A DNA stretch of 16,077 nt from assembly GCA_030616165.1 (NCBI GenBank), contig JAUWXV010000061.1, forward strand, positions 1 to 16,077, read 5' to 3'. Under the pieces are notes generated by a model that saw nothing but the letters and a program-made list of their open reading frames with translations, was not told the origin of the DNA and did not search any database. The position numbers were made by a program, and so were the translations under genes. Shown here one piece after another: positions 338 through 15,809 of this stretch (position 1 is the stretch's first letter; each line of letters begins with the position of its first letter). Origin of the DNA: a bacterium. Lineage in GTDB: Bacteria > SM23-31 > JAUVVT01.

Positions 338-1174
338 TTAACTAATTAAGTTTAGTTGTTGTTCTGCTTCTATTCTCATATCTGTAAAAGTTGGAGAGCT
401 TTCTTTCAATAATTTATAAAATGTATCTGTATTAAAAGAGTGATATTGACCTCTTAATATTGCCCAATCCATCATAATATTTTTCCGTATATTTATTTCA
501 TTAATTATTTTAACATAGGATTCAATTTTATTAGTAAATCCTTTATGGAATAAATGTCCAATCTGAAGAACATGCAATGCATAATCTTTTTGAAATCGTA
601 ATGGATTAATTGATAGATCTCTTATAAATTGATTTTTATCTCTAATTAATTCATTTGACAACTTCATATTTCCTTCTATTTCAGTTAAAAAACGATTTAA
701 TTTCTCTTGCTTCTCAGTAAATCTTGGAATAAGATCCTGTTCTTTATCCTTTAGGAATTTAATTACCTTATCTATCATTTTATCTATATTGGGTCTATTT
801 TCATTATATTCGAGATCTATGAAATCCATATTTGTTGAAATAAAGCCTTTTGATTTAATTCTTCTTCCTTTGTAACTTTTTCGAGTAACGTGTAATAATA
901 ATTGGATCTGTCCAAGTTCTTTAAGGCATTTAGCATACCCCCATTCTTGATTAACCCATTGGTGGTTTTTAGACTCATTGGTTATCAAAACAATAAAGAC
1001 ATTACACTTTTTGAAGGATTTGATTACTTTTTCAGTAAAAGTTGTATCTCCTTCTTTACGGTCTTCAACAAGTTCAACGCAAAATGAACTTTCAAGTTTT
1101 TCATTTATTTTTTCTTCTAACTTTTTAGCTATATTGTAATTCTTCCCTGCATAACTGATAAATACATAATTCAT
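338..1174 (-). CDS. TIR-domain protein with helical C-terminal region
   Basis: The first ~145 of 278 residues form a TIR domain: FISYAGKN near the N-terminus (beta A), a mid-domain segment FIVLITNES, and SKNHQWVNQEWGYA, where W73 and E77 match the conserved Trp and the catalytic Glu position of bacterial TIR NADases. In that family the enzyme degrades or cyclises NAD+, often as an antiphage effector. Residues ~150-278 are helical and charged, with no family I recognise; they may sense a trigger or a partner. No membrane segment or signal peptide is seen, so it should be cytosolic. The ATG is preceded by AGGTGAT at good spacing. The gene is divergent from the DUF5677-like gene with 246 bp between. 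The TIR assignment is firm; the defence role is inferred. Confidence 0.85.
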   Translation of the reverse strand: MNYVFISYAGKNYNIAKKLEEKINEKLESSFCVELVEDRKEGDTTFTEKVIKSFKKCNVFIVLITNESKNHQWVNQEWGYAKCLKELGQIQLLLHVTRKSYKGRRIKSKGFISTNMDFIDLEYNENRPNIDKMIDKVIKFLKDKEQDLIPRFTEKQEKLNRFLTEIEGNMKLSNELIRDKNQFIRDLSINPLRFQKDYALHVLQIGHLFHKGFTNKIESYVKIINEINIRKNIMMDWAILRGQYHSFNTDTFYKLLKESSPTFTDMRIEAEQQLNLIS

Positions 1175-1387: not shown

Positions 1388-1420
1388 TGAAAATAGAGAA
1401 AATAAAAAAAATATGTGAGT

Positions 1421-2356
1421 ATGAAGAAAGGTAAAATGGATATTACAAAAATATTTTCTATTGTTCTTGAAACCTTTTTATATATTGCAAAAGAAACTGG
1501 TAATTTGCAAGGTAATAAAGCTGATGAAAAATTGAGTTTGGCATTTTTCAGACAAAGTGCCTTAATAGGTTATAGTCTTGACGATACATATAGTCCCCAA
1601 AGCTTAGCTAAATTTCCATCATTAGAAGAAAGTGGTGGTTTGACAGATATCGTTACACCCTTTATTCTTGTTCGCAATCTTTTTGAGACTTATATAATTA
1701 TGTATTATTTATTGATTGACTCTGAATCGGAAAAGGAAAAAGAATTTAGATTAAATTTATGGGATAGACATGGTTTAAGTGAAGGAATGGAAATGTCTAA
1801 ATTATTACTTGTCAATCGTAATGTGATAAAAGAATACGAAAGACAATATAAAGTTTTATGGAAAAAAATAGTATCTTCAGACTTTTATAAGAAACTAAGT
1901 GAACCAGAGAAGAAATCAATAAAAAAGCCCTATAAATGGATTGTAAAGAAAAAGGGCGAAAATATATATGATATACTTTATCTTTCGGATATAGCTAAAA
2001 TTCATCCGTCTCAGGCAGGTTTTATATATAAATTTTTATCTAATTATGTTCATTCTCAAAGCTTTTCGTTGGAACACCAAGCAACTATTTTAAAATTTTC
2101 AGATACTAAAGAAGAATTGGATAGGTCTAAATTTTATGCATGTATGTTCTTGTCATTAATATTAGATTGTTTTTGTAAGATTATCCCAAAAGCAAGGGAT
2201 TTAATTGATGATAACAAAGACATTAAAGAGATTATTGAAGTATATCAAGAACTTAAAGAAGAAAGTTTATTAGATATAGAAGTAGAAAAGAATAAATTAA
2301 AAAAGAATAAAAAAGTACAGACTAATAAAATCCCAAATCCAACAAATCTGGCATAA
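1421..2356 (+). CDS. DUF5677/HEPN-like helical protein
   Basis: A 311-residue, all-helical, soluble-looking protein. The segment ILVRNLFETYIIMYYLL resembles the conserved R-x3-E helix of DUF5677-type proteins, and SNYVHSQSF supplies the late His that this group often has. Function of the family is not established; such proteins are frequent in accessory and defence regions. The C-terminus is a Lys-rich tail (KNKLKKNKK). I chose ATG 1421 over the GTG two codons upstream (1415) because neither has a strong ribosome site and ATG is the commoner start. It is divergent from the TIR gene and could be its partner, but nothing in the sequence demonstrates that. Family call is moderate; an unrelated HEPN-like protein is the alternative. 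Confidence 0.65.
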   Translation: MKKGKMDITKIFSIVLETFLYIAKETGNLQGNKADEKLSLAFFRQSALIGYSLDDTYSPQSLAKFPSLEESGGLTDIVTPFILVRNLFETYIIMYYLLIDSESEKEKEFRLNLWDRHGLSEGMEMSKLLLVNRNVIKEYERQYKVLWKKIVSSDFYKKLSEPEKKSIKKPYKWIVKKKGENIYDILYLSDIAKIHPSQAGFIYKFLSNYVHSQSFSLEHQATILKFSDTKEELDRSKFYACMFLSLILDCFCKIIPKARDLIDDNKDIKEIIEVYQELKEESLLDIEVEKNKLKKNKKVQTNKIPNPTNLA

Positions 2357-4262: not shown

Positions 4263-5693
4263 ATGCCAGACATTAGTTACGTATGCATATCAGATATGCA
4301 TCTTGGCGAAGAGGATGGTCTATTAACTAATTTAAAAACTGGCAGTACTGACACTGAATCTACTCAGCCAAGCCCGGTTATGGTGCAATTAGTAGAGTGT
4401 TTAAGAGAGCTTATCTCTAAAAACAAGGAAGGAAAAAAACCAATACTTATTTTAAATGGAGATATCCTCGAACTGGCTTTGACCACTACCAATCATGCGG
4501 CTATGGTATTTGAACGCTTTATAGAACTTATTATGCCGGCTGGCAAAGAACTTTTTGAAAGAATTATATACATTCCTGGAAATCATGACCATCACATCTG
4601 GGAGCTTGCCCGGGAGACACAGTATGTTAATTACATTACAAAACCTGAAATGACAAATCCGGACATAGGCAAACGTCTTCCTATTCCCTGGCATACGACA
4701 AACATGTTTGTGGAAAATGATCCTAATCCAGTGCCTTCCTATTTCCTGACCAAACTGGTTAATAGATTCCCCCGCCCAACGGATTGTGTTATCACCACAG
4801 TATATCCCAACTTTGGCTTTTTTATAGAAGACAGCCAGAAATGTGTCATTTTTCATCATGGTCATTTCATTGAACCGCTCTATCAACTAATGAGTAACTT
4901 AAGGAATCTGATTCTTCCTAACCGTGAAAAACCGAGACATATTTGGGACATAGAAGCTGAAAACTTCGCCTGGATCGACTTTTTCTGGTCAACAATGGGA
5001 CGCTCCGGGGAGGTTGGGAAGGATGTTGAATTAATTTATGAGAAAATGCATGACAAGGTACAAGTCAAGAGACTTTTTTATACTTTTATTGACAATCTTG
5101 CCAAGAAAAAGAACTGGCCGAGAATTACGATGAAAATACTGGGAAGAATTATCTTTCATTTATTAAAAAACAAAATCCCCGGATTTGAAAAAAAACAAAT
5201 GGTTGATTCCTTGAGTCAAGATGCCAAAGATGCCCTTAAAGAATACATGAACACTCCTCTTAGGGAGCAGATTCTCGCAGAGCGAAAGGATACACCGAAT
5301 GATGTGACCTTTGTTTTTGGACATACTCACAAACCATTTCAGGAAAAAATGGATGTAACAAAATATCCTGAAAAAGTAAAAGTATATAACACCGGTGGTT
5401 GGGTAGTTGAAGATAAGGTTCCCCAACCACTCCATGGCGGTGCAATAATCCTGGTCGATGATGATCTGGATACCGTGTCACTTCGAATGTACAATCAGGA
5501 AGCCGACCCTGAAAAATATTCAATCAGGGTTGAGCAAGCTACACATGCTGGGGAAGAGAAGAATCCTCTTTACTACCAAATCCAGAATTTGGTTAAGTCA
5601 TCCGAGGACCTATGGCAGGAATTTTCAAATATTGCCGCCGATACAGTGGAAGAAAGGATCAAACATTTTAGAGATAGGCTAACTAAGGATTAG
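4263..5693 (+). CDS. Calcineurin-like metallophosphoesterase
   Basis: 476 residues with the full two-metal phosphoesterase signature: SDMHLG (D11, H13), LNGDILE (D67), GNHDHH (N107, H108, D109), FHHGH (around 198-201) and FGHTHKP (H354, H356). Enzymes of this fold hydrolyse phosphomonoesters or diesters, including nucleotides and lipid-sugar diphosphates; the substrate cannot be read here. The stretch between FHHGH and GHTH (about 150 residues) is long and contains basic and hydrophobic segments (for example residues 290-310), which could cap the site or touch the membrane. No signal peptide. AAAAGGAG lies 7 nt before the ATG. It precedes the glycyl radical enzyme by 195 bp on the same strand and may belong to the same pathway. 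Confidence 0.85.
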   Translation: MPDISYVCISDMHLGEEDGLLTNLKTGSTDTESTQPSPVMVQLVECLRELISKNKEGKKPILILNGDILELALTTTNHAAMVFERFIELIMPAGKELFERIIYIPGNHDHHIWELARETQYVNYITKPEMTNPDIGKRLPIPWHTTNMFVENDPNPVPSYFLTKLVNRFPRPTDCVITTVYPNFGFFIEDSQKCVIFHHGHFIEPLYQLMSNLRNLILPNREKPRHIWDIEAENFAWIDFFWSTMGRSGEVGKDVELIYEKMHDKVQVKRLFYTFIDNLAKKKNWPRITMKILGRIIFHLLKNKIPGFEKKQMVDSLSQDAKDALKEYMNTPLREQILAERKDTPNDVTFVFGHTHKPFQEKMDVTKYPEKVKVYNTGGWVVEDKVPQPLHGGAIILVDDDLDTVSLRMYNQEADPEKYSIRVEQATHAGEEKNPLYYQIQNLVKSSEDLWQEFSNIAADTVEERIKHFRDRLTKD

Positions 5694-5742
5694 AAAACTT
5701 CTTAATAAAGTTGTGCTTCCATCTTTTTCATAGCTTCACATT

Positions 5743-5780
5743 TATAACATCTATTAAGATGGGATGTTATATTGTTTTTC
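5743..5780 (+). terminator. Hairpin followed by a T-rich stretch, terminator or operator
   Basis: TATAACATC (5743-5751) and GATGTTATA (5763-5771) are a perfect 9-bp inverted repeat with an 11-nt loop, followed by TTGTTTTTC. It sits 50 bp after the phosphoesterase stop, so it may end that transcript. The stem is A/T-rich and weak, and the same core is repeated nearby, so a protein-binding site is an equal alternative. Confidence 0.35.
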
Positions 5781-5865
5781 ATGTTATACATTGGTAATGA
5801 TAGAAGTGATAGAAAGTTTGATGCTTAAATTGTCGTGTTGGGATAAAGTAAATTATAATGTTATA
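5764..5865. promoter_or_regulatory. Repeated ATGTTATA motif upstream of the GRE gene
   Basis: ATGTTATA occurs at 5764-5771, 5781-5788 and 5858-5865, and its complement TATAACAT at 5743-5750. The first two copies are 17 bp apart, and the third overlaps the end of the -10 element of the predicted promoter. This arrangement suits a regulator that blocks or recruits polymerase. The motif also appears by chance elsewhere in AT-rich parts of the window. Confidence 0.35.
5830..5859 (+). promoter_or_regulatory. Promoter of the GRE operon
   Basis: TTGTCG (5830-5835), 18 bp and a perfect TATAAT (5854-5859). The predicted start near 5866 leaves a leader of only about 23 nt with AAAGGAGG at 5874-5881. 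Confidence 0.5.
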
Positions 5866-5888
5866 TTTTTCATAAAGGAGGCAATCTT

Positions 5889-8462
5889 ATGGATAAAGAA
5901 CAACAAGTTGCAATTCGTGATTTGTCATTGGAAAAATATGATCTTACCAAACGCGTATCATATCTTAAAGATATATACTTTAGAGCAATGCCCGAAATAT
6001 GTATTGAACGTCCACGAATAATAACTAAATTCCACGAAAATAGTGGTCTTTTTAAAAAGAAGAGTATCACCATATTAGATAAAGCCAGAGCATACCGGGA
6101 TGTCCTTGAGAGGCGCACTCCGATAGTTCGCCACAGCTGTTCGTATGAGAAAGGTGTAAAAAAGATGAAGCGCTTTAAATTCAAGGAGGCCCCTCTTTTC
6201 GCAGGCTCCACTACAAGCAAGTTCAAAGGTGTTCCCCTTTATCCAGAGTTTCTTGCCCTGGCATTGTGGCCAGAACTTTGGACGATTTCAAAGAGGGCAA
6301 GTAATCCTTTCCATATTACAGATAATGAGGTGAAAAAACTCAATTACGAGATATTCCCCCACTGGATAGAAAACAATATAACTGAACTGGCGAGGAAAAG
6401 ATGCTACGAGGAAAATCTGAAAAAGTACGGACTTAATAAGCATGATCCTGAGATGAAGCTTTTAGAACGGCTTGTTATTTTTCTTGCCAGTAAACCCAAC
6501 TGTATCTCCCACACCATACCGGATTTTTCCAAGGCTATCAAACAAGGTTTGCGCCAGATAATCAAGGATGTCAAGAAGAAAAAAGAAGAAACTTCTGAAG
6601 ATTCCAAGAAAGAATTCTATACGGCAATCTCTGAGGTTCTTGAGGGGATAATCACATATTCAAAAAATTTGGCTGCTGAGGCCGAGAAACTTGCCAGTAA
6701 AGAAAGGGATCCTGTACTAAAAAAAGAACTCCTCGATATTGCAGAGATAAACAGTCATGTCCCTGAATATCCTGCACGGACTTTCCGTGAAGGACTGACT
6801 ACGATCTGGATCTGCTGGATCGCCATCCACCTTGAAAATCCAAACGTTGGTCTCAGTCTCGGCAGGCTCGATCAGGTTCTTTACAACCTTTACAGAAATG
6901 ATATTGACACTAATAAATTAACGATAGAGCAGGCCATTGAGTTAATATGTTGCTTGTGGCTTAAGATAGGCGACCATGTTCCTGCTATTCCGGATGCGGG
7001 TGAACAACTCTTTGGTGGGTCCGGCTCTAACCAAGCTATCACTATTGGTGGTGTTGACAAAAACGGTAAGGATGTCGTAAGTGATCTGACCTATGTTATG
7101 CTCAGAGCCACGGAGTTGATGAAATTACGTGATCCCAACCTTAATGCAAGGTATTATCAAAGTGAAAAATCCAGAGATTACCTGAGGAGGCTATGCGAGG
7201 TTAATATCAATACAGGAGCCACTCCAGCACTTCACAATGATAAGGCTGTTATCAAGGCTCTTGTCCATAAGGGTGAAACTGTTGAACAGGCACGGGATTA
7301 TGGTGTGATAGGCTGTGTAGAACCCGGGAGTAATGGAAGGTTCTATGGCCACACTGCTGCTATCTTATTGAACCTTACTTCTGCCCTTGAACTTACCCTC
7401 TTCAACGGCAGACACAGGCATACAGGTATGGATTTACTGATAAGCACAGAGTCAGGTGATGTCACCACCTTTACAACCTTTGAGGAGTTTAAGGCTGCAT
7501 TTGAAAAACAGACACGCTGGCTTGTCGAGCAAACAACAAACCTGAATAACATCTTGGGGAGAATACATCAGGACTTCTATCCCACACCTATCCTCTCGGC
7601 TTTCTTTGAAGGACCCATGAAGAAGGGAAAAGACCTTATTCAGGGTGGAGCTATGATCAACTCTTCAGGTGCAACCATCATTGGACTCGCAGATGTTGCT
7701 GATTCCCTGAGTGCTATCCAGAGAGTTGTTTTTGAGGAGAGGGCAACCTCCTTTGCAGACCTCCTTCAGGCCCTTGAAAGTAATTTTGAGGGTTACGAAT
7801 TCCTGCAAAAGCGACTTATGAATCCCGATAAGACCCCTAAATACGGTAATGAAAATTCTGCGGCTGATGCCAATGTTTCTTGGATAGTGGAACTATTGGA
7901 TAAAGCCTTTGGGGAGAAGATGAACTACCGCGGTGGACATTACCGAGTTGGATACTGGACTATGACCAACCATGCAGGTTTTGGCAGGCTGATGAAAGCT
8001 CTTCCCAACGGACGTAAAGCTCATGAGAACTTCACTAGCGGCATAACCCCTGTTTCCGGAGTTACTCCTTATCTTACAAAAGCCCTCAACTCTGTTGCAA
8101 AACAGCCTGTAGGATGTCTCTCAAACGGAATTGCCTTAAATCTTAAGTATACTCCTGAACATGGAAATAAGGAGAAGATGCTCGACAACTTTGTAGCCTC
8201 TGTAGAGGGGTATTTTGATGATGCTAATGGAGAGAGAGATGGCGGGATGGAAATCCAGTTCAATATCACAACACATGATGATTTTGTTAATGCTGTAGCC
8301 AATCCTGAGATTTATAAAGAACTTCTGGTTCGTGTTTCTGGGTATACTGCTTACTTTAAGGATCTTAATCCACAAATGCAAAAAGAGATAATCGATCGCA
8401 CAGAATATCTTCTATCCACCGGAAAAGCAAGGGATTTTGCTCCATTTCCGTTACCTAAATGA
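5889..8462 (+). CDS. Glycyl radical enzyme of the eliminase type, substrate unknown
   Basis: 857 residues, full length for the pyruvate formate-lyase superfamily. The PFL domain spans most of the protein. The active-site loop is IGCVEP, with the thiyl-forming Cys at 476 and Glu at 478; the Cys-Val-Glu layout is typical of GRE eliminases (choline lyase, glycerol/diol dehydratases, hydroxyproline dehydratase). Pyruvate formate-lyase instead has Cys-Cys. Near the C-terminus RVSGYTAYF places the radical at G818, 39 residues from the end. Other family landmarks are EICIERPR (37-43), GGAMINSSG and a SLSAIQRVVFEE helix. The enzyme is cytosolic, and O2 would cleave the activated form at the Gly. Ribosome site AAAGGAGG, 7 nt before the ATG. 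Downstream come the SCP2-like protein and the activase. Substrate cannot be assigned: no microcompartment or aldehyde dehydrogenase genes are near, so it is not an obvious CutC or diol dehydratase. Confidence 0.93.
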   Translation: MDKEQQVAIRDLSLEKYDLTKRVSYLKDIYFRAMPEICIERPRIITKFHENSGLFKKKSITILDKARAYRDVLERRTPIVRHSCSYEKGVKKMKRFKFKEAPLFAGSTTSKFKGVPLYPEFLALALWPELWTISKRASNPFHITDNEVKKLNYEIFPHWIENNITELARKRCYEENLKKYGLNKHDPEMKLLERLVIFLASKPNCISHTIPDFSKAIKQGLRQIIKDVKKKKEETSEDSKKEFYTAISEVLEGIITYSKNLAAEAEKLASKERDPVLKKELLDIAEINSHVPEYPARTFREGLTTIWICWIAIHLENPNVGLSLGRLDQVLYNLYRNDIDTNKLTIEQAIELICCLWLKIGDHVPAIPDAGEQLFGGSGSNQAITIGGVDKNGKDVVSDLTYVMLRATELMKLRDPNLNARYYQSEKSRDYLRRLCEVNINTGATPALHNDKAVIKALVHKGETVEQARDYGVIGCVEPGSNGRFYGHTAAILLNLTSALELTLFNGRHRHTGMDLLISTESGDVTTFTTFEEFKAAFEKQTRWLVEQTTNLNNILGRIHQDFYPTPILSAFFEGPMKKGKDLIQGGAMINSSGATIIGLADVADSLSAIQRVVFEERATSFADLLQALESNFEGYEFLQKRLMNPDKTPKYGNENSAADANVSWIVELLDKAFGEKMNYRGGHYRVGYWTMTNHAGFGRLMKALPNGRKAHENFTSGITPVSGVTPYLTKALNSVAKQPVGCLSNGIALNLKYTPEHGNKEKMLDNFVASVEGYFDDANGERDGGMEIQFNITTHDDFVNAVANPEIYKELLVRVSGYTAYFKDLNPQMQKEIIDRTEYLLSTGKARDFAPFPLPK

Positions 8463-8551
8463 GACATTTGAGGCCTGTAAAGGGTTGGTGTAGTCTCTAT
8501 TGGATAAGTAAAGTGATATGAACGTTAACTTAACCAAAAAGGAGTTGACAA

Positions 8552-9040
8552 ATGAGATCCATACTAAAACGTTTTTTGCTAAGACCAATTCCTTATTTTT
8601 TTACTGATATAGTGGGAGTTTATATAGCGAGACTTTTCTCAAGAAGTTTGAAAAAAGAACTATCTGGAAAAGCAACAGATGAGTTTCTGGAGCTCCTATT
8701 AAGGGGTATGGACCTGGCTTTTTATCTATCGAAAGGATATCGGAAGAATATAAGAGATTTTGAGGGACGTTACCTCTTTAAAACTGCTGACAATCTTGTT
8801 GCTGCCTCTGCTATTTTTAAGGATGGTGATATGGAGGTCCTCGAAGACGTAATAGATGATTGGGATATTATGATAACCTTCAAAGATTCTGAAGCATTGT
8901 TGGCCTATATATTCTCTAAGGATCAAGATATTCTCGATTCAATATTGGCAAACGATGTTGAGGTTGAAGGAAACTTGAATTATATATATAAGTTTGGTTT
9001 TATGGTCAGGGACCTCGCCCATAAACTTGGAGTCGGATAA
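8552..9040 (+). CDS. SCP2 sterol/lipid-carrier-like protein
   Basis: 162 residues. Residues ~67-158 look like an SCP2 domain: alternating strands with DIMITFKDSEALLAYIFS, then DVEVEGNLNYIYKFGFM, the conserved G-N after a V-x-V-E strand followed by a hydrophobic C-terminal helix. SCP2 proteins bind fatty acyl chains, sterols or other apolar ligands in a tunnel. Residues 1-30 are basic and hydrophobic (FLLRPIPYFFTDIVG) and could hold the protein to a membrane. AAAAAGGAG precedes the ATG, 89 bp after the GRE stop. Its stop touches the activase start with no gap, so the two are translationally coupled. A carrier gene inside a GRE-activase pair is unusual and is the best hint that the substrate is hydrophobic. 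Family call is from pattern, not a search. Confidence 0.7.
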   Translation: MRSILKRFLLRPIPYFFTDIVGVYIARLFSRSLKKELSGKATDEFLELLLRGMDLAFYLSKGYRKNIRDFEGRYLFKTADNLVAASAIFKDGDMEVLEDVIDDWDIMITFKDSEALLAYIFSKDQDILDSILANDVEVEGNLNYIYKFGFMVRDLAHKLGVG

Positions 9041-9973
9041 ATGTTACAGAGGAGTAAACTTCCCCTTATTGTTGATATCAAGAGGAACAGTCTTGAAGAT
9101 GGACCGGGTATCCGAAGTGTTGTTTTCTTCAAAGGATGCCCTCTGCGATGTATGTTCTGTCACAGCCTTGAAACCCAGGAGCCATGGGTAGAGATTGCAT
9201 TTTCATCTAAGGAGTGTATAAAATGTGGGAAGTGTGCAGATACCTGTCCAAATGGTGCTATCGACGTTGATTTCTTAGGACGTATCCATAGAGATAAGTG
9301 CGTCCGATGCGGAGAATGTACCATCACCTGTCCCGGGAATGGTCTTAGACTTATAGGAACTTATTACCAGGTTGAAGCGCTCACCGAAATTCTCCTACGA
9401 GACCTTTCCTATTATCGCTATTCAGGAGGTGGAGTAACTCTTTCAGGTGGTGAATGTACAATTTATCCCGATTATGTTGGATCTCTTCTTATATCCTTGA
9501 AGGCTAAAGCGGTTCATATCGTTCTGGAAACTTCAGGCTATTTTGAATACAATACCTTCAAGCAAAAGATACTTCCATATATAGATCTCGTCTACTACGA
9601 TATTAAGATCGCAGATCCCAGAGCTCACAATAAGTACATTGGGAAACCAAATCAGAGAATTCTTAAGAACTTTTGCCGGCTTATTAAGGAAAAGAGAGTC
9701 GAGGTTCGTCCCCGCATTCCTCTTGTGCCTGGTATTACTGCCACAAGAGAAAACCTATCAGCAATCGTCGGATTTCTATGTGAAGCAGGGGCAGATGATG
9801 TCACCTTACTCCCTTACAATCCAATGGGGATAGAGATGGCTGTTAACCTCGGAAGGCAAAAGCCGCATATTCCCGAGGGATTTATGAAACCTGATGAAGA
9901 AAGAGAAGTGTATTCTATGTTCAGAACGATACTTGGGGAAAAGAAAAAAATGGGAGCAGTTTTAGTGTCATAA
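9041..9973 (+). CDS. Glycyl-radical enzyme activating protein (radical SAM)
   Basis: 310 residues. GPGIRSVVFFKGCPLRCMFC carries the radical SAM CxxxCxxC set (C33, C37, C40) that binds the SAM-cleaving 4Fe-4S cluster. A ferredoxin-like insert follows with two CxxCxxCxxxC sets (C59, C62, C65, C69 and C87, C90, C93, C97), as in activases of choline lyase, benzylsuccinate synthase and 4-hydroxyphenylacetate decarboxylase. SGGGVTLSGGE is the glycine-rich SAM-binding segment. It abstracts H from G818 of the upstream GRE. The ATG directly follows the SCP2 stop, with GGAG inside the SCP2 end as ribosome site. The usual W-C-x-NPE after the cluster is changed to FCHSLETQEP, a minor variation. Confidence 0.93.
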   Translation: MLQRSKLPLIVDIKRNSLEDGPGIRSVVFFKGCPLRCMFCHSLETQEPWVEIAFSSKECIKCGKCADTCPNGAIDVDFLGRIHRDKCVRCGECTITCPGNGLRLIGTYYQVEALTEILLRDLSYYRYSGGGVTLSGGECTIYPDYVGSLLISLKAKAVHIVLETSGYFEYNTFKQKILPYIDLVYYDIKIADPRAHNKYIGKPNQRILKNFCRLIKEKRVEVRPRIPLVPGITATRENLSAIVGFLCEAGADDVTLLPYNPMGIEMAVNLGRQKPHIPEGFMKPDEEREVYSMFRTILGEKKKMGAVLVS

Positions 9974-10489
9974 TATATGAAAGCAGAATAGTCTATTAAT
10001 AAGGTAGATAACTAAGCATAATTATCTGAGTAAATAGTAATAATAAAATCTGAATCCTTCAACTTTACGTTTTTTTGACCTTTATGGAGGACTTAAACTA
10101 TACATGGGGCAATGCATCAACAGACTCTTTTACACTGGGGAAGGTAACGAATGAGATTTATAATTTTAAATCTCAGAATGTTCTTGGCATTGTTTTCGTA
10201 TGAGAATAAGTATTACAATTATCAAAAAATTAACAAATTTAGTGCTTTCATCAATGATATGCCGAAGTCATTCTCTGCACATCACGGTTTTATCGATACT
10301 TTCCTAAGTTCATGTTGGGTAGGTTTGATTACGCCTGTGAGTGGATGTACCACGTATACTGTTTCCTCACTCACACAATAAGGAATGAATCCTACCCTAT
10401 TTTTAGCGAGAGTAATAAAAGCCTTTTCAGAAAGAATAGAAGAGATTTTAAGGATGAACTAATTACCTTAATTAGGAAAGGAGGAAGAT
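9974..10489. other. Gap between activase and membrane pair, with ambiguous open frames
   Basis: No confident gene is seen in 516 bp. A 9-bp perfect hairpin (TGAGATTTA at 10152, TAAATCTCA ending at 10175, 6-nt loop) lies in it. On the plus strand a frame from 10151 to 10381 and a second from 10385 to 10462 are in the same phase, separated by a single TAA. On the minus strand a 65-codon frame without a start is open across roughly 10270-10470 (translation includes AKNRVGFIPYCVSEETVYVV). I cannot tell which strand was coding; a decayed gene or a structured RNA are both possible. Confidence 0.35.
10075..10104 (+). promoter_or_regulatory. Possible promoter for the membrane-protein pair
   Basis: TTGACC (10075-10080), 18 bp and TATACA (10099-10104), 5/6 and 4/6 matches. 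If used it would start near 10111 and give a leader of about 380 nt before the first membrane protein. Confidence 0.3.
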
Positions 10490-11098
10490 ATGGTTCAGAT
10501 AGACATACCCGCTGCTTTTATCGCAAGCATGCTTTTTCTGGATGTGGGAAGAAAAGTAGTATTGAAGGAAGCTAAGGAAACAAATGAAGCGAAACCTGCG
10601 GTCTATTATAAGTTTCTTTTCAGGTCTGTTTTTTTTGCGGGTTTTGTTATAGCGCCTGCCGGTATTTATCTCCTTGCCGGATGGCCTGGCTGGGAGCAAA
10701 TATATTGGAGTAAGAGTTTTGAATTAGTAATGCATACTGGATGGGTAAATGCACTTCTGCCGGCATTTTTTATAATTGCCATTGTGCTTGGAGCTTATTG
10801 GGGGCATGTCCTTGGGTATCGATGGCTAATCACCGGTAAAGTGAAATACCTGCGCCCGACCTATATTGCAGTTCTCATTGTGGTTGGAATTGTTGTATTG
10901 GTTAATTATCCGTCTTTTCTCCTTGTAGGCACCTATGACCAATACAATAACTTAAATGGGCAAGTTCGTGGGGATATGGCAAATGTGTGGAGTAATCCAT
11001 ATGGTTTTTCTGTTGCTTGGATAATGGTCATGCTCTATTTTATTATCTGTTTTTTCTATCTATTTTTCAAAATAAGGAATGAGAGTACAAAATATTAA
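10490..11098 (+). CDS. Multi-pass membrane protein, GWPGWE motif (paralogue A)
   Basis: 202 residues with four clear transmembrane segments (about 44-66, 85-109, 123-145 and 172-194) and a hydrophobic N-terminus starting VQIDIPAAFIA that may be a fifth. The loop after the first clear segment carries AGWPGWE, and a later loop GTYDQYNN and WSNPYGF. The neighbouring gene encodes a protein with the same order of these motifs, so the two are paralogues and may form a heteromer. I do not recognise the family; a transporter or membrane-bound enzyme are both possible. AAAGGAGG lies close before the ATG. The next gene starts 11 bp after its stop. Confidence 0.7.
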   Translation: MVQIDIPAAFIASMLFLDVGRKVVLKEAKETNEAKPAVYYKFLFRSVFFAGFVIAPAGIYLLAGWPGWEQIYWSKSFELVMHTGWVNALLPAFFIIAIVLGAYWGHVLGYRWLITGKVKYLRPTYIAVLIVVGIVVLVNYPSFLLVGTYDQYNNLNGQVRGDMANVWSNPYGFSVAWIMVMLYFIICFFYLFFKIRNESTKY

Positions 11099-11109
11099 GG
11101 AGGTATGAA

Positions 11110-11664
11110 ATGCTTGCTATTGATATTCCAATTTCAATATTAGCAGGTCTAGTGCTTGCAGAGGGTGGTAAGAACATGATCAAGGGTGGAGATAGCCAGA
11201 AATACAACTTTATGCGTGCCACAGTCCTGCTGTATGCGGTCTTCTTTATTACGCCTATTCCGTTTTATTTTTTTATGGGATGGCCAGCTTGGGAGACGAA
11301 TTTCCTCTGGAGGTGGCCCGACAGTCTCCTTGACAGTCCGTTAAAGGCATCTGTATCTTTTGTAGCATTTATACTAACAGTGGGTCCAGCATATCTGGGT
11401 TTTTACTGCGGCACATTCCTGATAAGAATGGGGAAAGATATTTGGGTACGGATAGGATATATATCAATGGGAATTCTGGTAGGTATTATAGTATTTTTAA
11501 CAAGGGGTATTACCTTCAACATTGCAAGTACTTATTCAAAATATGAGGCAGGTGATTTTTATTCCTTTTGGTCACACCCATTCTTTACAGGCTGGCTAAT
11601 TGTCACAATTTACTTTTGGGGTTCTTTGGTTGTCTTTTATATCTGGCTTCGTAAGAAAAATTAA
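11110..11664 (+). CDS. Multi-pass membrane protein, GWPAWE motif (paralogue B)
   Basis: 184 residues with the same layout as the upstream protein: N-terminal AIDIPISILAGL, then a segment ending in MGWPAWE, two more helices, a loop with STYSKYEAGDFYSFWSHP, and a last helix. Shared positions include IDIP, GWPxWE, the [GS]TY[DS][KQ]Y loop and WS[HN]P. Conserved Trp, Glu, Tyr and Asp at membrane edges hint at a catalytic or ligand site, but function is unknown. AAGGAGG precedes the ATG, overlapping the stop region of paralogue A, so the two are translated together. Probably a duplication followed by divergence. Confidence 0.7.
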   Translation: MLAIDIPISILAGLVLAEGGKNMIKGGDSQKYNFMRATVLLYAVFFITPIPFYFFMGWPAWETNFLWRWPDSLLDSPLKASVSFVAFILTVGPAYLGFYCGTFLIRMGKDIWVRIGYISMGILVGIIVFLTRGITFNIASTYSKYEAGDFYSFWSHPFFTGWLIVTIYFWGSLVVFYIWLRKKN

Positions 11665-11826
11665 CCGTTATACCCAATCCATTGTTGTCAGCTGCCAGAT
11701 GTTCAACAATAAAGATTTCAAGTCGATTTGAAAAAAGTTTGGCTATTCTTATTATTTTAAGAGTCTTGCGGTTGAGTCCGTTCAGCGGTGGCAAGTATAT
11801 GAAAGGTTTATAATTACAGAAAAAGA
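11665..11826. other. Short gap before the reductase, open on both strands
   Basis: A plus-strand frame 11667-11810 (includes SRFEKSLAILIILRV) and a minus-strand frame (YLPPLNGLNRKT and onward) are both open through this 162-bp stretch. Neither has a convincing start and ribosome site, and the minus frame runs into paralogue B. It may be a remnant of an inserted gene. No clear terminator is seen. Confidence 0.25.
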
Positions 11827-13044
11827 ATGATTTCTATGTCTGTTTTGTTTACAAAAGCCAAGATTGGCAATATGGAACTATCGAATCGTATGATTCGTAC
11901 TGCTTCTCATGAAGGGCTGGCAGACAGTACTGGCAAGCCAACTGATGAGCAGTTTGAGTTTTATAAAGGCTTTATAGAAGGAGGAATCGGTCTTGTTATC
12001 ACCGGGTATGCTGGAATTATGCAGTCAGGGAAGAGTGCCCTTTACCATATGACTATGATCGATTCTGACGAACTGATTCCATATCATCGAAGGCTTATTG
12101 ACCGTGTTCATCAGATTGGCGGAAAAATTATACTCCAAATAGCCCATTGCGGACGTCAAACCTGGTCAAGTGAAACGGGTGAGCCGCTCTTAGCCCCTTC
12201 AGCGATCCCGTGTGGTTTTTATCGTGAAACGCCCAAAGAAATAAGTGAAGAGGAGATATATACCGTAATAGAAGAGTTTGCAAAGGCAGCCCTCCGGATC
12301 AGGGAAGCGGGATATGACGGTGTACAAATCCATGGTGCCCATGGTTATCTTCTCTCTACATTTTTATCACGACATTCCAACAAGAGGAAAGACCAATGGG
12401 GAGGGAGTATTAAAAATCGTTTCAGAATAGTTAGCGAAACATTGAGAGCCGTTAGAAGAGTTGTCGGAGAAGATTATCCGGTACTTATAAAGCTTAATAC
12501 ATATGAGCGAGCACGAAAAGGAAACAAGTCCGAGGATTGCGTCCAATTTGCTAAAATGGTTGAAAATACCGGTTGTTGTGATGCTATAGAGCTAAGCTGC
12601 GGCACAAATGAAGGTGGGTTTGTCATGACGAGGGGGGAGTTCCCGACTGACGCTATTTTTAAATACATGCGTCCTTACCGCAAGTATCATTCATTGGTTA
12701 AATTTTTTCTAAGGAGTTTCGTGCTCCCATTTGTTAAGTTAAAACAGCCACCATTTTCCGAAGGATATAATCTAGAAACTGCTGTAAAGGTAAAACAGGC
12801 GGTTTCTTTACCTATAATTACCGTAGGAGGTATGCGATCCAAAAGTTTTATGGAAGCAGCCATTGAATTGAAGAAAACAGATTTTGTTTCCATGGCAAGA
12901 CCGTTAATCCTGGAACCTGATCTGGCTAACAAATTTAAGAACGGAATCAGCGATATTGCCTTATGTGACAACTGTAATAAATGTGTTGTTGCCACTGATA
13001 CGCGCCCCATTCAATGTTATAATATACCATTATTGGAAGCGTAA
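11827..13044 (+). CDS. Old Yellow Enzyme-type NADH:flavin/ene-reductase with 4Fe-4S motif
   Basis: 405 residues forming an FMN-binding TIM barrel: GNMELSNRMIRTASHEG at the N-terminus, AHCGRQT, the HGAHGYLLSTFLS loop with N-x-RxDxWGGS after it, and IITVGGM near the C-terminal phosphate site. Close to the end C380, C383, C386 and C397 (CDNCNKC then IQC) match the 4Fe-4S site of the 2,4-dienoyl-CoA reductase/BaiCD branch. That branch reduces C=C bonds of enones or enoyl-CoAs. The family's C-terminal FAD/NAD domain is missing, so electrons must come from another protein or directly from NAD(P)H. The usual start of the family suggests ATG 11836 (MSVLF) as an alternative; the ribosome site is weak for both. 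Last gene of the plus-strand block. Confidence 0.85.
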   Translation: MISMSVLFTKAKIGNMELSNRMIRTASHEGLADSTGKPTDEQFEFYKGFIEGGIGLVITGYAGIMQSGKSALYHMTMIDSDELIPYHRRLIDRVHQIGGKIILQIAHCGRQTWSSETGEPLLAPSAIPCGFYRETPKEISEEEIYTVIEEFAKAALRIREAGYDGVQIHGAHGYLLSTFLSRHSNKRKDQWGGSIKNRFRIVSETLRAVRRVVGEDYPVLIKLNTYERARKGNKSEDCVQFAKMVENTGCCDAIELSCGTNEGGFVMTRGEFPTDAIFKYMRPYRKYHSLVKFFLRSFVLPFVKLKQPPFSEGYNLETAVKVKQAVSLPIITVGGMRSKSFMEAAIELKKTDFVSMARPLILEPDLANKFKNGISDIALCDNCNKCVVATDTRPIQCYNIPLLEA

Positions 13045-13580: not shown

Positions 13581-15809
13581 TTGAAAGAATATTTATGTAA
13601 AAATCATTCTAAAATAACTGGAATTACATTTCCAGATATAAATATCGTCAGGATAAGAGTTCGTAACGGTTACGATCAATTTACACAAAAAGACTCTGTG
13701 GCTGTGGTTGAGCAAGATAAAAAAATAGAAATATTTATTAATCAAAGTAATGATGTTCCAGAGGAATTAGTAATTTCACCTGAGAAAAATAGTGATTCAA
13801 GCATAATATATAATAAAGAATCTGAACTAATAACATTCTTCTATAAAAGACGGTGTATAGCCAAAACTATTAGTCCAATATATAGTAATAACAAGGGAAC
13901 ATATGTAGATTTTGAGAATCCGGGAGAAGAATATAACTTTTATGGCTTGGGCGAAAAAGCTGGAAGATTGGAAAAGACCGGTGAAGACTGGGTATTAAAA
14001 AATAATGAAACATACAGCTATTCAGAAAAATGTGACTCCTTATATGCAAGCATTCCATTCTTTATTGTGGTTACAAAAAATGATACTTTTGGTATATTTC
14101 TGGATCAAATACAACATTCATTTTTTGATTTTGGAAAATCTAAAAATCACAATAAATTCACATTCGGGAGTGAATCGCATCATGAAATAGATTTTTATTT
14201 TATATTTGGTAATAACCCAAATGAAATAGTAAAAAGTTATTTTAAGCTAACAGGATATTCCTATTTTCCTCCAAGAAGAGCTTTTGGGCATCATCAATGC
14301 AGGTGGAGTTATAAAAATGAAAAACAAATAAGAAAACTTATATGTAATTTTAAGAAACATAATGTTCCATGTGATATGATTTATTTTGATATTGATTATA
14401 TGGATAAATTTAAAATTTTCACAGTTAATGAAAAGGCTTTTCCAGACATACATAACTTACTAAAAGATATTAAAAATGAAGGATATCATCCCACATTTAT
14501 TGTTGATCCCGGTGTTAAAGAAGAAGCCGGTTATAGAGTATATGAAGATGGAATGAAAAATAATATTTTCTTAAAAGATTCCAATGGAATTTGGAAAGGG
14601 AAAGTTTGGGCTGAAGGTAAAACAGTTTTCCCTGATTTTTATAAAAATGAAACTAGGCAATGGTGGGCTAATCTGCATAAAAATTTTGTGACTAAAAAAC
14701 TAAGAACGCATGTTGACATCTGGAACGATATGAATGAAATAGCTCACGGATTGAAAGAAAATCCGGATGATGTATTTTTTGAATATAATGACAGGAGTTT
14801 ACCATACAAAGAGTTCCATAATGCGTATGCTCTTATGGAAGCGAAAGCAACAAATGATTACGCAAAAGATTCAGGGAAAAGGACATTTATACTCTCAAGA
14901 GCCGGATTCTCAGGAATACAAAGATATGCAGGAATATGGACCGGGGACAATTGGAGTAATTACAGTCATCTTAAAATGACAATAAGCATGATGCTAAATT
15001 TATCTCTTTCTGGAATCCCGATAGTTGGATGTGATGGCTTAGGTTATGGCGGATTTTGTACACCAGGAGCAGCAATACGCTGGACTCAGGCTATGTGCCT
15101 GCTGCCGATAATGAGATTTCACTCTGCAAAATGGTTTCCCCCTAAAGAGCCATGGAGCTTTGGAAAAGTTGTATTAAAACATATAAAAAAATATATTAAA
15201 TTGAGATATAAATTCTTACCTCATTTGTACAACTTGGCACATAAAAGTCATACTAAAGGAGAATTGATAATTAAGCCAATATTTTTTGATTATCCGGAAG
15301 ATGAAAATACATATAATTTAGATAATCAATATCTCGTTGGTGATAGTATATTAGTCGCTCCTGTTGTAACTCCATTGCTCCCCTGGAAGAAATTGTATTT
15401 ACCAGAAGGTAAATGGATAAGGCTGGAAGATGGTAAAGAATTTACCGGGAGGAAATGGGTCAGGATGTTAGTACCATATAGCAAATGTCCAATTTTTATA
15501 AAAAAGGGATCGGTCATAGCAACACAAGATGTTGGCACGAATCATGAACCTCTAAATAAAACTTTATTTATAAACGTGTATCCTCCAGAAAAAGGAGAAA
15601 TTTTATATGAATTTTATGATGATGATGGTGTCAATTATAACACAAAGCCAACAATAATTAATATCAAAGTAGATGACAGAAAAATACTTATAAAAAGTAT
15701 AAGTAGAGGAGACAGTCATTATGAATCAATAGTCGTTAGGGTAGGTGATATAGAAATAAAAAAAATATTTCTTGAAGAACTTGCATTTGATGAGTTCAGT
15801 TTTGTATAG
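13581..15809 (+). CDS. GH31 alpha-glucosidase-type glycoside hydrolase
   Basis: 742 residues. The N-terminal ~200 form the beta-sandwich of GH31, then the TIM barrel with FDIDYMDKFKIFTVNEKAFPD (first half of the signature). HVDIWNDMNE gives the nucleophile D383, and IWTGDNWSN gives the acid/base D456. AGFSGIQRYAGIW and IRWTQAMCLLPIMRFHSA are also family landmarks, and a C-terminal beta domain follows. The usual DIGGFxG loop reads CDGLGYGG here. The reaction is hydrolysis or transfer of terminal alpha-glucosyl (or alpha-xylosyl) residues; the exact linkage is not readable. No signal peptide, so it should act inside the cell. Start: TTG 13581, the first codon after GGAG at 8 nt; no in-frame ATG gives a full N-terminal domain. 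It is linked to the small membrane protein by 14 bp. Confidence 0.9.
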   Translation: MKEYLCKNHSKITGITFPDINIVRIRVRNGYDQFTQKDSVAVVEQDKKIEIFINQSNDVPEELVISPEKNSDSSIIYNKESELITFFYKRRCIAKTISPIYSNNKGTYVDFENPGEEYNFYGLGEKAGRLEKTGEDWVLKNNETYSYSEKCDSLYASIPFFIVVTKNDTFGIFLDQIQHSFFDFGKSKNHNKFTFGSESHHEIDFYFIFGNNPNEIVKSYFKLTGYSYFPPRRAFGHHQCRWSYKNEKQIRKLICNFKKHNVPCDMIYFDIDYMDKFKIFTVNEKAFPDIHNLLKDIKNEGYHPTFIVDPGVKEEAGYRVYEDGMKNNIFLKDSNGIWKGKVWAEGKTVFPDFYKNETRQWWANLHKNFVTKKLRTHVDIWNDMNEIAHGLKENPDDVFFEYNDRSLPYKEFHNAYALMEAKATNDYAKDSGKRTFILSRAGFSGIQRYAGIWTGDNWSNYSHLKMTISMMLNLSLSGIPIVGCDGLGYGGFCTPGAAIRWTQAMCLLPIMRFHSAKWFPPKEPWSFGKVVLKHIKKYIKLRYKFLPHLYNLAHKSHTKGELIIKPIFFDYPEDENTYNLDNQYLVGDSILVAPVVTPLLPWKKLYLPEGKWIRLEDGKEFTGRKWVRMLVPYSKCPIFIKKGSVIATQDVGTNHEPLNKTLFINVYPPEKGEILYEFYDDDGVNYNTKPTIINIKVDDRKILIKSISRGDSHYESIVVRVGDIEIKKIFLEELAFDEFSFV

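Follow-up and report, generated by a model that had tools for sequence, protein, structure and literature searches.

A glycyl radical enzyme subfamily with an obligate SCP2-fold partner: candidate eliminases for lipid-like substrates

What does a glycyl radical enzyme (GRE) act on when the next gene encodes a protein resembling a lipid carrier? This question is raised by the 16,077-nucleotide bacterial contig JAUWXV010000061.1 (the window in what follows), where an eliminase-type GRE, a protein of the predicted SCP2 fold and a radical S-adenosylmethionine (SAM) activase are encoded one after another. In guts and sediments GREs are responsible for a large part of the difficult anaerobic reactions, and time and again a new subfamily has brought an unsuspected pathway to light. 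A sequence-only reading of the window had proposed an uncharacterised GRE in a block of six co-occurring genes, with a hydrophobic and perhaps sterol-like substrate. We find that the conserved unit consists of the GRE, the SCP2 protein and the activase. Our preferred reading, to which we give a probability of roughly 0.55, is that this core is a lipid-dedicated glycyl radical eliminase acting on a lipid-like substrate presented by the carrier. The three core genes are the following.

5889-8462, plus strand: GRE, eliminase type, 857 amino acids (PFL-like domain, 5.9e-159; Gly_radical domain, 3.8e-18)
8552-9040, plus strand: predicted SCP2-fold lipid-carrier protein, 162 amino acids, the obligate partner (AlphaFold model, VIA-align, Foldseek, fusions in relatives)
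9041-9973, plus strand: radical SAM GRE activase with extra 4Fe-4S clusters, 310 amino acids (TIGR02494, Radical_SAM, Fer4)

The stop of the SCP2 gene and the start of the activase gene abut (9040/9041), 89 bases lie between the GRE and the SCP2 gene, and about 500 bases separate the activase from the next gene. Promoter- and terminator-like sites occur in the window at a frequency no different from that in shuffled sequence. The activase scores 257.5 bits with TIGR02494 (cut-off 174.35) and thus qualifies as a cognate radical SAM activase.

The enzyme belongs to the GRE superfamily, since it has the PFL-like barrel, the glycyl radical domain and the catalytic Cys and Gly. Its motifs are GCVE (C476 and E478) and RVSGY (G818), to which H208 can be added. 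All equivalog scores stay far below their cut-offs: in NCBIfam 432.1 bits against 1050 for CutC (choline trimethylamine-lyase) and 434.9 against 1100 for HypD (trans-4-hydroxyproline dehydratase), further 425 and 392.9 against 1000 for the sulfopropanediol dehydratase HpsG/HpfG, 278.3 against 1100 for indoleacetate decarboxylase and 213.5 against 1150 for hydroxyphenylacetate decarboxylase. Among solved structures CutC and propanediol dehydratase (PD) score best, CutC being the closest match (402 bits); the isethionate sulfite-lyase chain 7kq3 reaches 268.5 bits. In trees that held no IslA sequence, the SCP2-associated GREs form a single clade, with support 100 in FastTree (86 rows, i.e. the 80 loci of the search described below, the window and further matches) and 99 under an IQ-TREE mixture model (49 rows). 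CutC, HypD, PD, PflD and YbiW fall outside this clade in both trees, as does PflB in the FastTree tree, and the GRE profile score drops from 949 to 806 bits at the clade edge. Scores and trees support a placement of the GRE outside every biochemically known family tested (IslA being absent from the trees), and to that extent the proposal of an uncharacterised GRE has held. Membership in the CutC, HypD, PD, HpsG, decarboxylase and succinate-synthase families was ruled out by equivalog scores, trees and residues. The limonene GRE of the literature is a succinate synthase and hence not relevant here.

Some further GREs stand close to these. The source genome has two more besides that of the window, and one of them groups with HypD. 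Near the clade in both trees branches a GRE from an Acinetobacter towneri plasmid (L152, NZ_CP127890.1) for which no SCP2 partner is annotated; GRE and activase are also found on Moraxella osloensis plasmids, i.e. in mostly aerobic bacteria. Other GREs lacking SCP2 (L037 and L134) branch next to the clade, and the genomes of L037 and its relatives (genome family f27) can hold as many as 12 GRE candidates apiece.

In the clade alignment C476, E478, G818 and H208 are invariant (86/86 rows), and so is the GCVE loop, which places these enzymes in the Cys-X-Glu eliminase class. The complete Cys/Glu/Gly eliminase machinery is present, as the sequence-only reading had suggested from C476, E478 and G818, and elimination activity is predicted. 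Residue roles are assigned here from the alignment and not from a structure of the GRE itself. With glycerol and propanediol dehydratases (GD/PD) the window GRE shares the Cys-Val-Glu loop, the glycyl loop, a His aligned with H208 and a dedicated activase. It differs from them in its separate clade and in having G or A at position 321 in place of Ser, mostly N, G or A at position 490 (Cys+14) in place of Asp, and N or D at position 381 (81 of 86 rows), where CutC, HypD and PD all have Phe. The window locus also has the SCP2 partner and no aldehyde or alcohol dehydrogenase or shell genes. CutC has the CVE motif and a Thr at Cys+13 in common with the window GRE, but carries Asp at the H208 position and works with a microcompartment. 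HypD is likewise of the eliminase type with His and CVE; the window GRE lies outside its clade. A microcompartment link is ruled out: as had been proposed for the window, there is no shell gene (PF00936), and none was found in the whole source genome (about 90% complete). Throughout the clade W127, D362, W690 and H695 do not vary; elsewhere the first three positions mostly hold other residues, but H695 is common there as well. Taken together, the alignment with CutC, HypD and PD points to a distinct reaction pocket of higher polarity, one that could accommodate an amphipathic molecule by its polar end.

The same active site bears on another way to account for a hydrophobic carrier, namely that the enzyme activates hydrocarbons by fumarate addition. 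Alkyl- and benzylsuccinate synthases are indeed GREs for hydrophobic substrates and have extra subunits, and one clade GRE (L077) belongs to the hydrocarbon degrader Desulfatibacillum alkenivorans. Succinate synthases, however, lack the CXE glutamate, which is invariant here (86/86). Their similarity to the window GRE is low (BssA 151 and MasD 176 bits against 402 for CutC), their subunits are different, and no small-subunit genes of this kind were recognised in the window. Fumarate addition is thus largely excluded by the active site, and we regard it as very improbable.

Is the partner a lipid carrier? Alone, the window protein has no Pfam match. At E<=0.01 PF02036 is matched by 19 of 65 homologous domains (the best of them at 6.8e-06) but not by the window protein, and with a profile of the homologues sterol carrier proteins rank top in the PDB (E 0.0055). 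The AlphaFold model (pLDDT 83.2, pTM 0.75) has the strand and helix order of SCP2. Foldseek has SCP2-type chains in ranks 1-45, led by UbiJ (2e-05) and with alkylsulfatase SCP2 domains among the top ones. VIA-align gives Z 13.3 (root-mean-square deviation 2.4 over 111 residues) with the SCP2 domain of human MFE-2 (SCP-2L, 1ikt) and Z 12-14 with those of the alkylsulfatases Pisa1/SdsA1; these nearest folds are SCP2 domains joined to enzymes for long-chain substrates. Profile and predicted structure agree that the partner has an SCP2 fold, as proposed earlier, although Pfam does not see it, and lipid binding is predicted. Attachment of an SCP2 domain to a catalytic domain is known from SCP2-tailed MFE-2, SCPx thiolase and the alkylsulfatases, none of which is a glycyl radical enzyme.

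How constant the pairing is was judged from a contig search with one genome per species. The single window GRE as query returned nothing from genome and viral contigs, probably because the chosen peptide patterns are not conserved. With an alignment of the closest GRE relatives as query, 80 loci were obtained (37-78% identity; given below by their L numbers). Plasmids yielded only GREs of at most about 31% identity. Together with the window, SCP2 was found by open reading frame (ORF) and profile analysis at 80 of 81 loci, which means at every judgeable one; in the remaining locus (L061) the contig ends inside the GRE. At 33 loci SCP2 has a gene of its own, downstream of the GRE and ahead of the activase (at L119 at a distance of 1.4 kb); it forms an N-terminal domain of the GRE at 46 loci (proteins of about 985-1036 amino acids) and a C-terminal domain at one (L066), so that it is fused in 47 of the 80 judgeable loci; note that clade rows are related by descent and these counts are not independent events. 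One locus (L129) seemed at first to lack SCP2 in its short flank, and there the gene adjoins the activase 1.3 kb off. For GREs outside the clade the count of SCP2 within 1.5 kb is 0 of 31. Conversely, in 193 genomes all eight strong matches to this SCP2 subfamily (E<1e-20) lie at a clade GRE, and four weak ones (1e-6 to 1e-7) are located elsewhere. An activase lies within 8 kb at 33 of 34 non-N-fused and 35 of 46 N-fused loci, several of the latter on short contigs. The order GRE, SCP2, activase recurs in many phyla, beyond chance. Because the pairing exists in three arrangements and across deep divergence, we conclude that GRE and SCP2 are functionally linked. We found no paper in the openly readable literature that mentions the pairing of GRE and SCP2; database annotations were not checked, and it may already have been seen and passed over. 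What is new is the subfamily with an obligate lipid-carrier module, the GRE superfamily itself being known.

A strict one-to-one presence suits a subunit no less than a carrier. The SCP2 protein could have a structural or regulatory role, as a subunit that keeps the GRE stable (for instance while it is being activated), and the substrate could then be a small polyol or amino alcohol of the usual kind. Small subunits are known from benzylsuccinate synthase and 4-hydroxyphenylacetate decarboxylase, and UbiJ, the top Foldseek match, acts in ubiquinone assembly. An active site with His and Glu is also what small-molecule dehydratases have. We nevertheless consider this explanation rather unlikely: the SCP2 domains are more divergent (mean column identity 27%) than the GREs (56%, from a smaller alignment), VIA-align finds its nearest folds among SCP2 domains that handle substrates, and the PD-type Ser and Asp positions are not kept.

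If the core is a lipid eliminase, it could work as follows. The activase would form a radical on G818 that is passed on to C476. The SCP2 domain would draw an amphipathic substrate with a long chain out of the membrane and offer the polar end of this molecule to the GRE. The thiyl radical of C476 would take a hydrogen from the hydroxyl-bearing carbon and E478 would deprotonate that hydroxyl, giving a ketyl radical that expels the group on the adjacent carbon and leaves an aldehyde or ketone. Nearby reductases might then process the carbonyl product, i.e. the ene-reductase of the old yellow enzyme (OYE) family in the window and, at other loci, a short-chain dehydrogenase/reductase (SDR) or NAD-dependent dehydrogenases. 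As for the substrate class, we tentatively suggest a lipid of the glycerol type whose CH2OH has been freed by loss of the head group, with a hydroxyl or O-alkyl chain as the leaving group, because this would fit the elimination chemistry, the SCP2 domain and the phosphoesterase; the guess is a doubtful one, and the chemistry would suit long-chain diols and sphingoid bases just as well. Metallophosphoesterase, SDR and ene-reductase neighbours are compatible with a lipid substrate.

Several points weigh against a lipid eliminase. Lipid presentation by SCP2 is itself an inference, and UbiJ-type SCP2 folds serve as assembly factors. Compared with known eliminases, the pocket is more polar on the side of C476, so that the hydrophobic substrate proposed earlier fits if it has a polar head but not if it is purely hydrophobic. 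Neighbours other than the activase vary widely and form no conserved pathway that would name the product, and the window has none of the aldehyde or alcohol dehydrogenases that usually accompany diol dehydratases. Separate and fused sub-types may act on different substrates.

The rest of the block (4263-13044, all seven named genes on the plus strand) consists of the following genes.

4263-5693, plus strand: calcineurin-like metallophosphoesterase, 476 amino acids (PF00149, 1.8e-07), upstream neighbour and occasional partner
10490-11098, plus strand: multi-pass membrane protein 1, 202 amino acids, no Pfam family, occasional partner
11110-11664, plus strand: membrane protein 2, 184 amino acids, paralogue of membrane protein 1
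11827-13044, plus strand: OYE-family ene-reductase, 405 amino acids (PF00724, 6.1e-64), rare partner

All genes of the sequence-only reading are where it had placed them, according to ORF, Pfam, NCBIfam and motif evidence. The metallophosphoesterase shows by eye the motifs D-H, GDxxE, GNHD and GHTH. The two membrane proteins are 27% identical and have D5, P56, W65, W68 and E69 in common. The reductase ends in C-x2-C-x2-C-x10-C, judged by eye to be probably an Fe-S (4Fe-4S) site; its Cys residues are kept in two homologues (L047 and L063).

The six-gene set is not a conserved module. Whereas SCP2 is never missing, a membrane protein lies near only 6 of the 34 non-N-fused loci (the window, L044, L046, L047, L057, L063), the OYE reductase near 3 (the window, L047, L063) and a metallophosphoesterase in a minority, so that homologues regularly occur without the membrane pair and the reductase that had been expected to accompany them. 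Directly upstream of the GRE a metallophosphoesterase is found at eight loci (L041, L044, L045, L061, L063, L064, L066, L069), of a subfamily different from that in the window. Ten of the 34 loci (L044, L048, L056, L057, L060, L063, L064, L065, L067, L071) have beside them a protein here called D599, often with a duplicated domain (GLYLGxL..AT, YxYxxFGYFLLMD) and sometimes with a lipoprotein-like signal; Pfam gave it only weak N-terminal matches, and its model (pLDDT 66) no significant fold match (best E 0.15). DUF6765 (PF20551) adjoins four separate-type loci in different phyla (L056, L062, L068, L071), and by eye these proteins look like zinc phospholipase C-type proteins. The 46 N-fused loci have a TetR regulator at 10, an SDR at 7, an NAD-dependent epimerase/3-beta-hydroxysteroid dehydrogenase (HSD)-like dehydrogenase at 5, and 2-hydroxyacyl-CoA dehydratase-type (HGD-D) subunits within several kb at 6 (L082, L102, L103, L107, L110, L118).

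These neighbours also bear on the sterol-like substrate of the sequence-only reading, in which the GRE would remove a hydroxyl from an isoprenoid, hopanoid or sterol-type alcohol and the OYE reductase would reduce the unsaturated product. SCP2 folds do bind sterols and acyl chains, BaiCD is among the OYE relatives, and at some N-fused loci the gene after the activase encodes the 3-beta-HSD-like dehydrogenase. The window reductase scores under the cut-offs of BaiCD and of the mycofactocin OYE. Set against this idea are the rarity of the OYE gene, a clade that includes rumen Clostridiales and Lokiarchaeota with no recurring sterol-specific gene, and the chemistry, as in a radical elimination the hydroxyl must stand next to the leaving group, an arrangement absent from most sterols. 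We find such a substrate improbable. Of the earlier proposal, a lipid-like substrate in general draws support from the constant SCP2 carrier, and "sterol-like" is one guess among several, with no observation that singles out sterols.

Outside the block, a TIR-domain protein (338-1174, minus strand; PF13676, weak CAP12/Pycsar-type match) adjoins a DUF5677 protein (1415-2356, plus strand), and the two may form an element for defence against phages; they are unrelated to the GRE block. Downstream (13581-15809, plus strand) lies a glycoside hydrolase of family 31, alpha-glucosidase MalA-like at a score under the cut-off.

Hosts of clade GREs, by the names in their records, include Nitrospirota, Nitrospinota, Planctomycetota, Gemmatimonadota, Acidobacteriota, Armatimonadota, Desulfobacterota, Myxococcota, Spirochaetota, Chloroflexota, Clostridiales (Bacillota) and Lokiarchaeota. 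Matches above 900 bits were present in 14 of 386 broadly sampled genomes, the Lokiarchaeota coming from other searches. Most members are from metagenome assemblies; the cultured exception is the sulfate reducer D. alkenivorans DSM 16219 (L077), a host in which GRE-SCP2 could be studied. Strain PF2803T of this species makes mono- to tetra-alkyl ether lipids by Ger, an unrelated enzyme (PMC11150832); a connection with the GRE is no more than a suggestion.

A clade whose lipid-carrier domain is obligate marks a defined gap among GREs that can be tested, and the fused form offers one polypeptide to express with one activase. It is conceivable, though we would not count on it, that these enzymes form a new functional class of lipid eliminases in which SCP2 feeds membrane lipids to the GRE and head-group-free glycerol lipids are cleaved by radical elimination, which may extend to the ether bonds in ether lipids of archaea and bacteria. 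If this is true, they would provide an oxygen-independent route of ether-lipid breakdown in sediments, digesters and the rumen.

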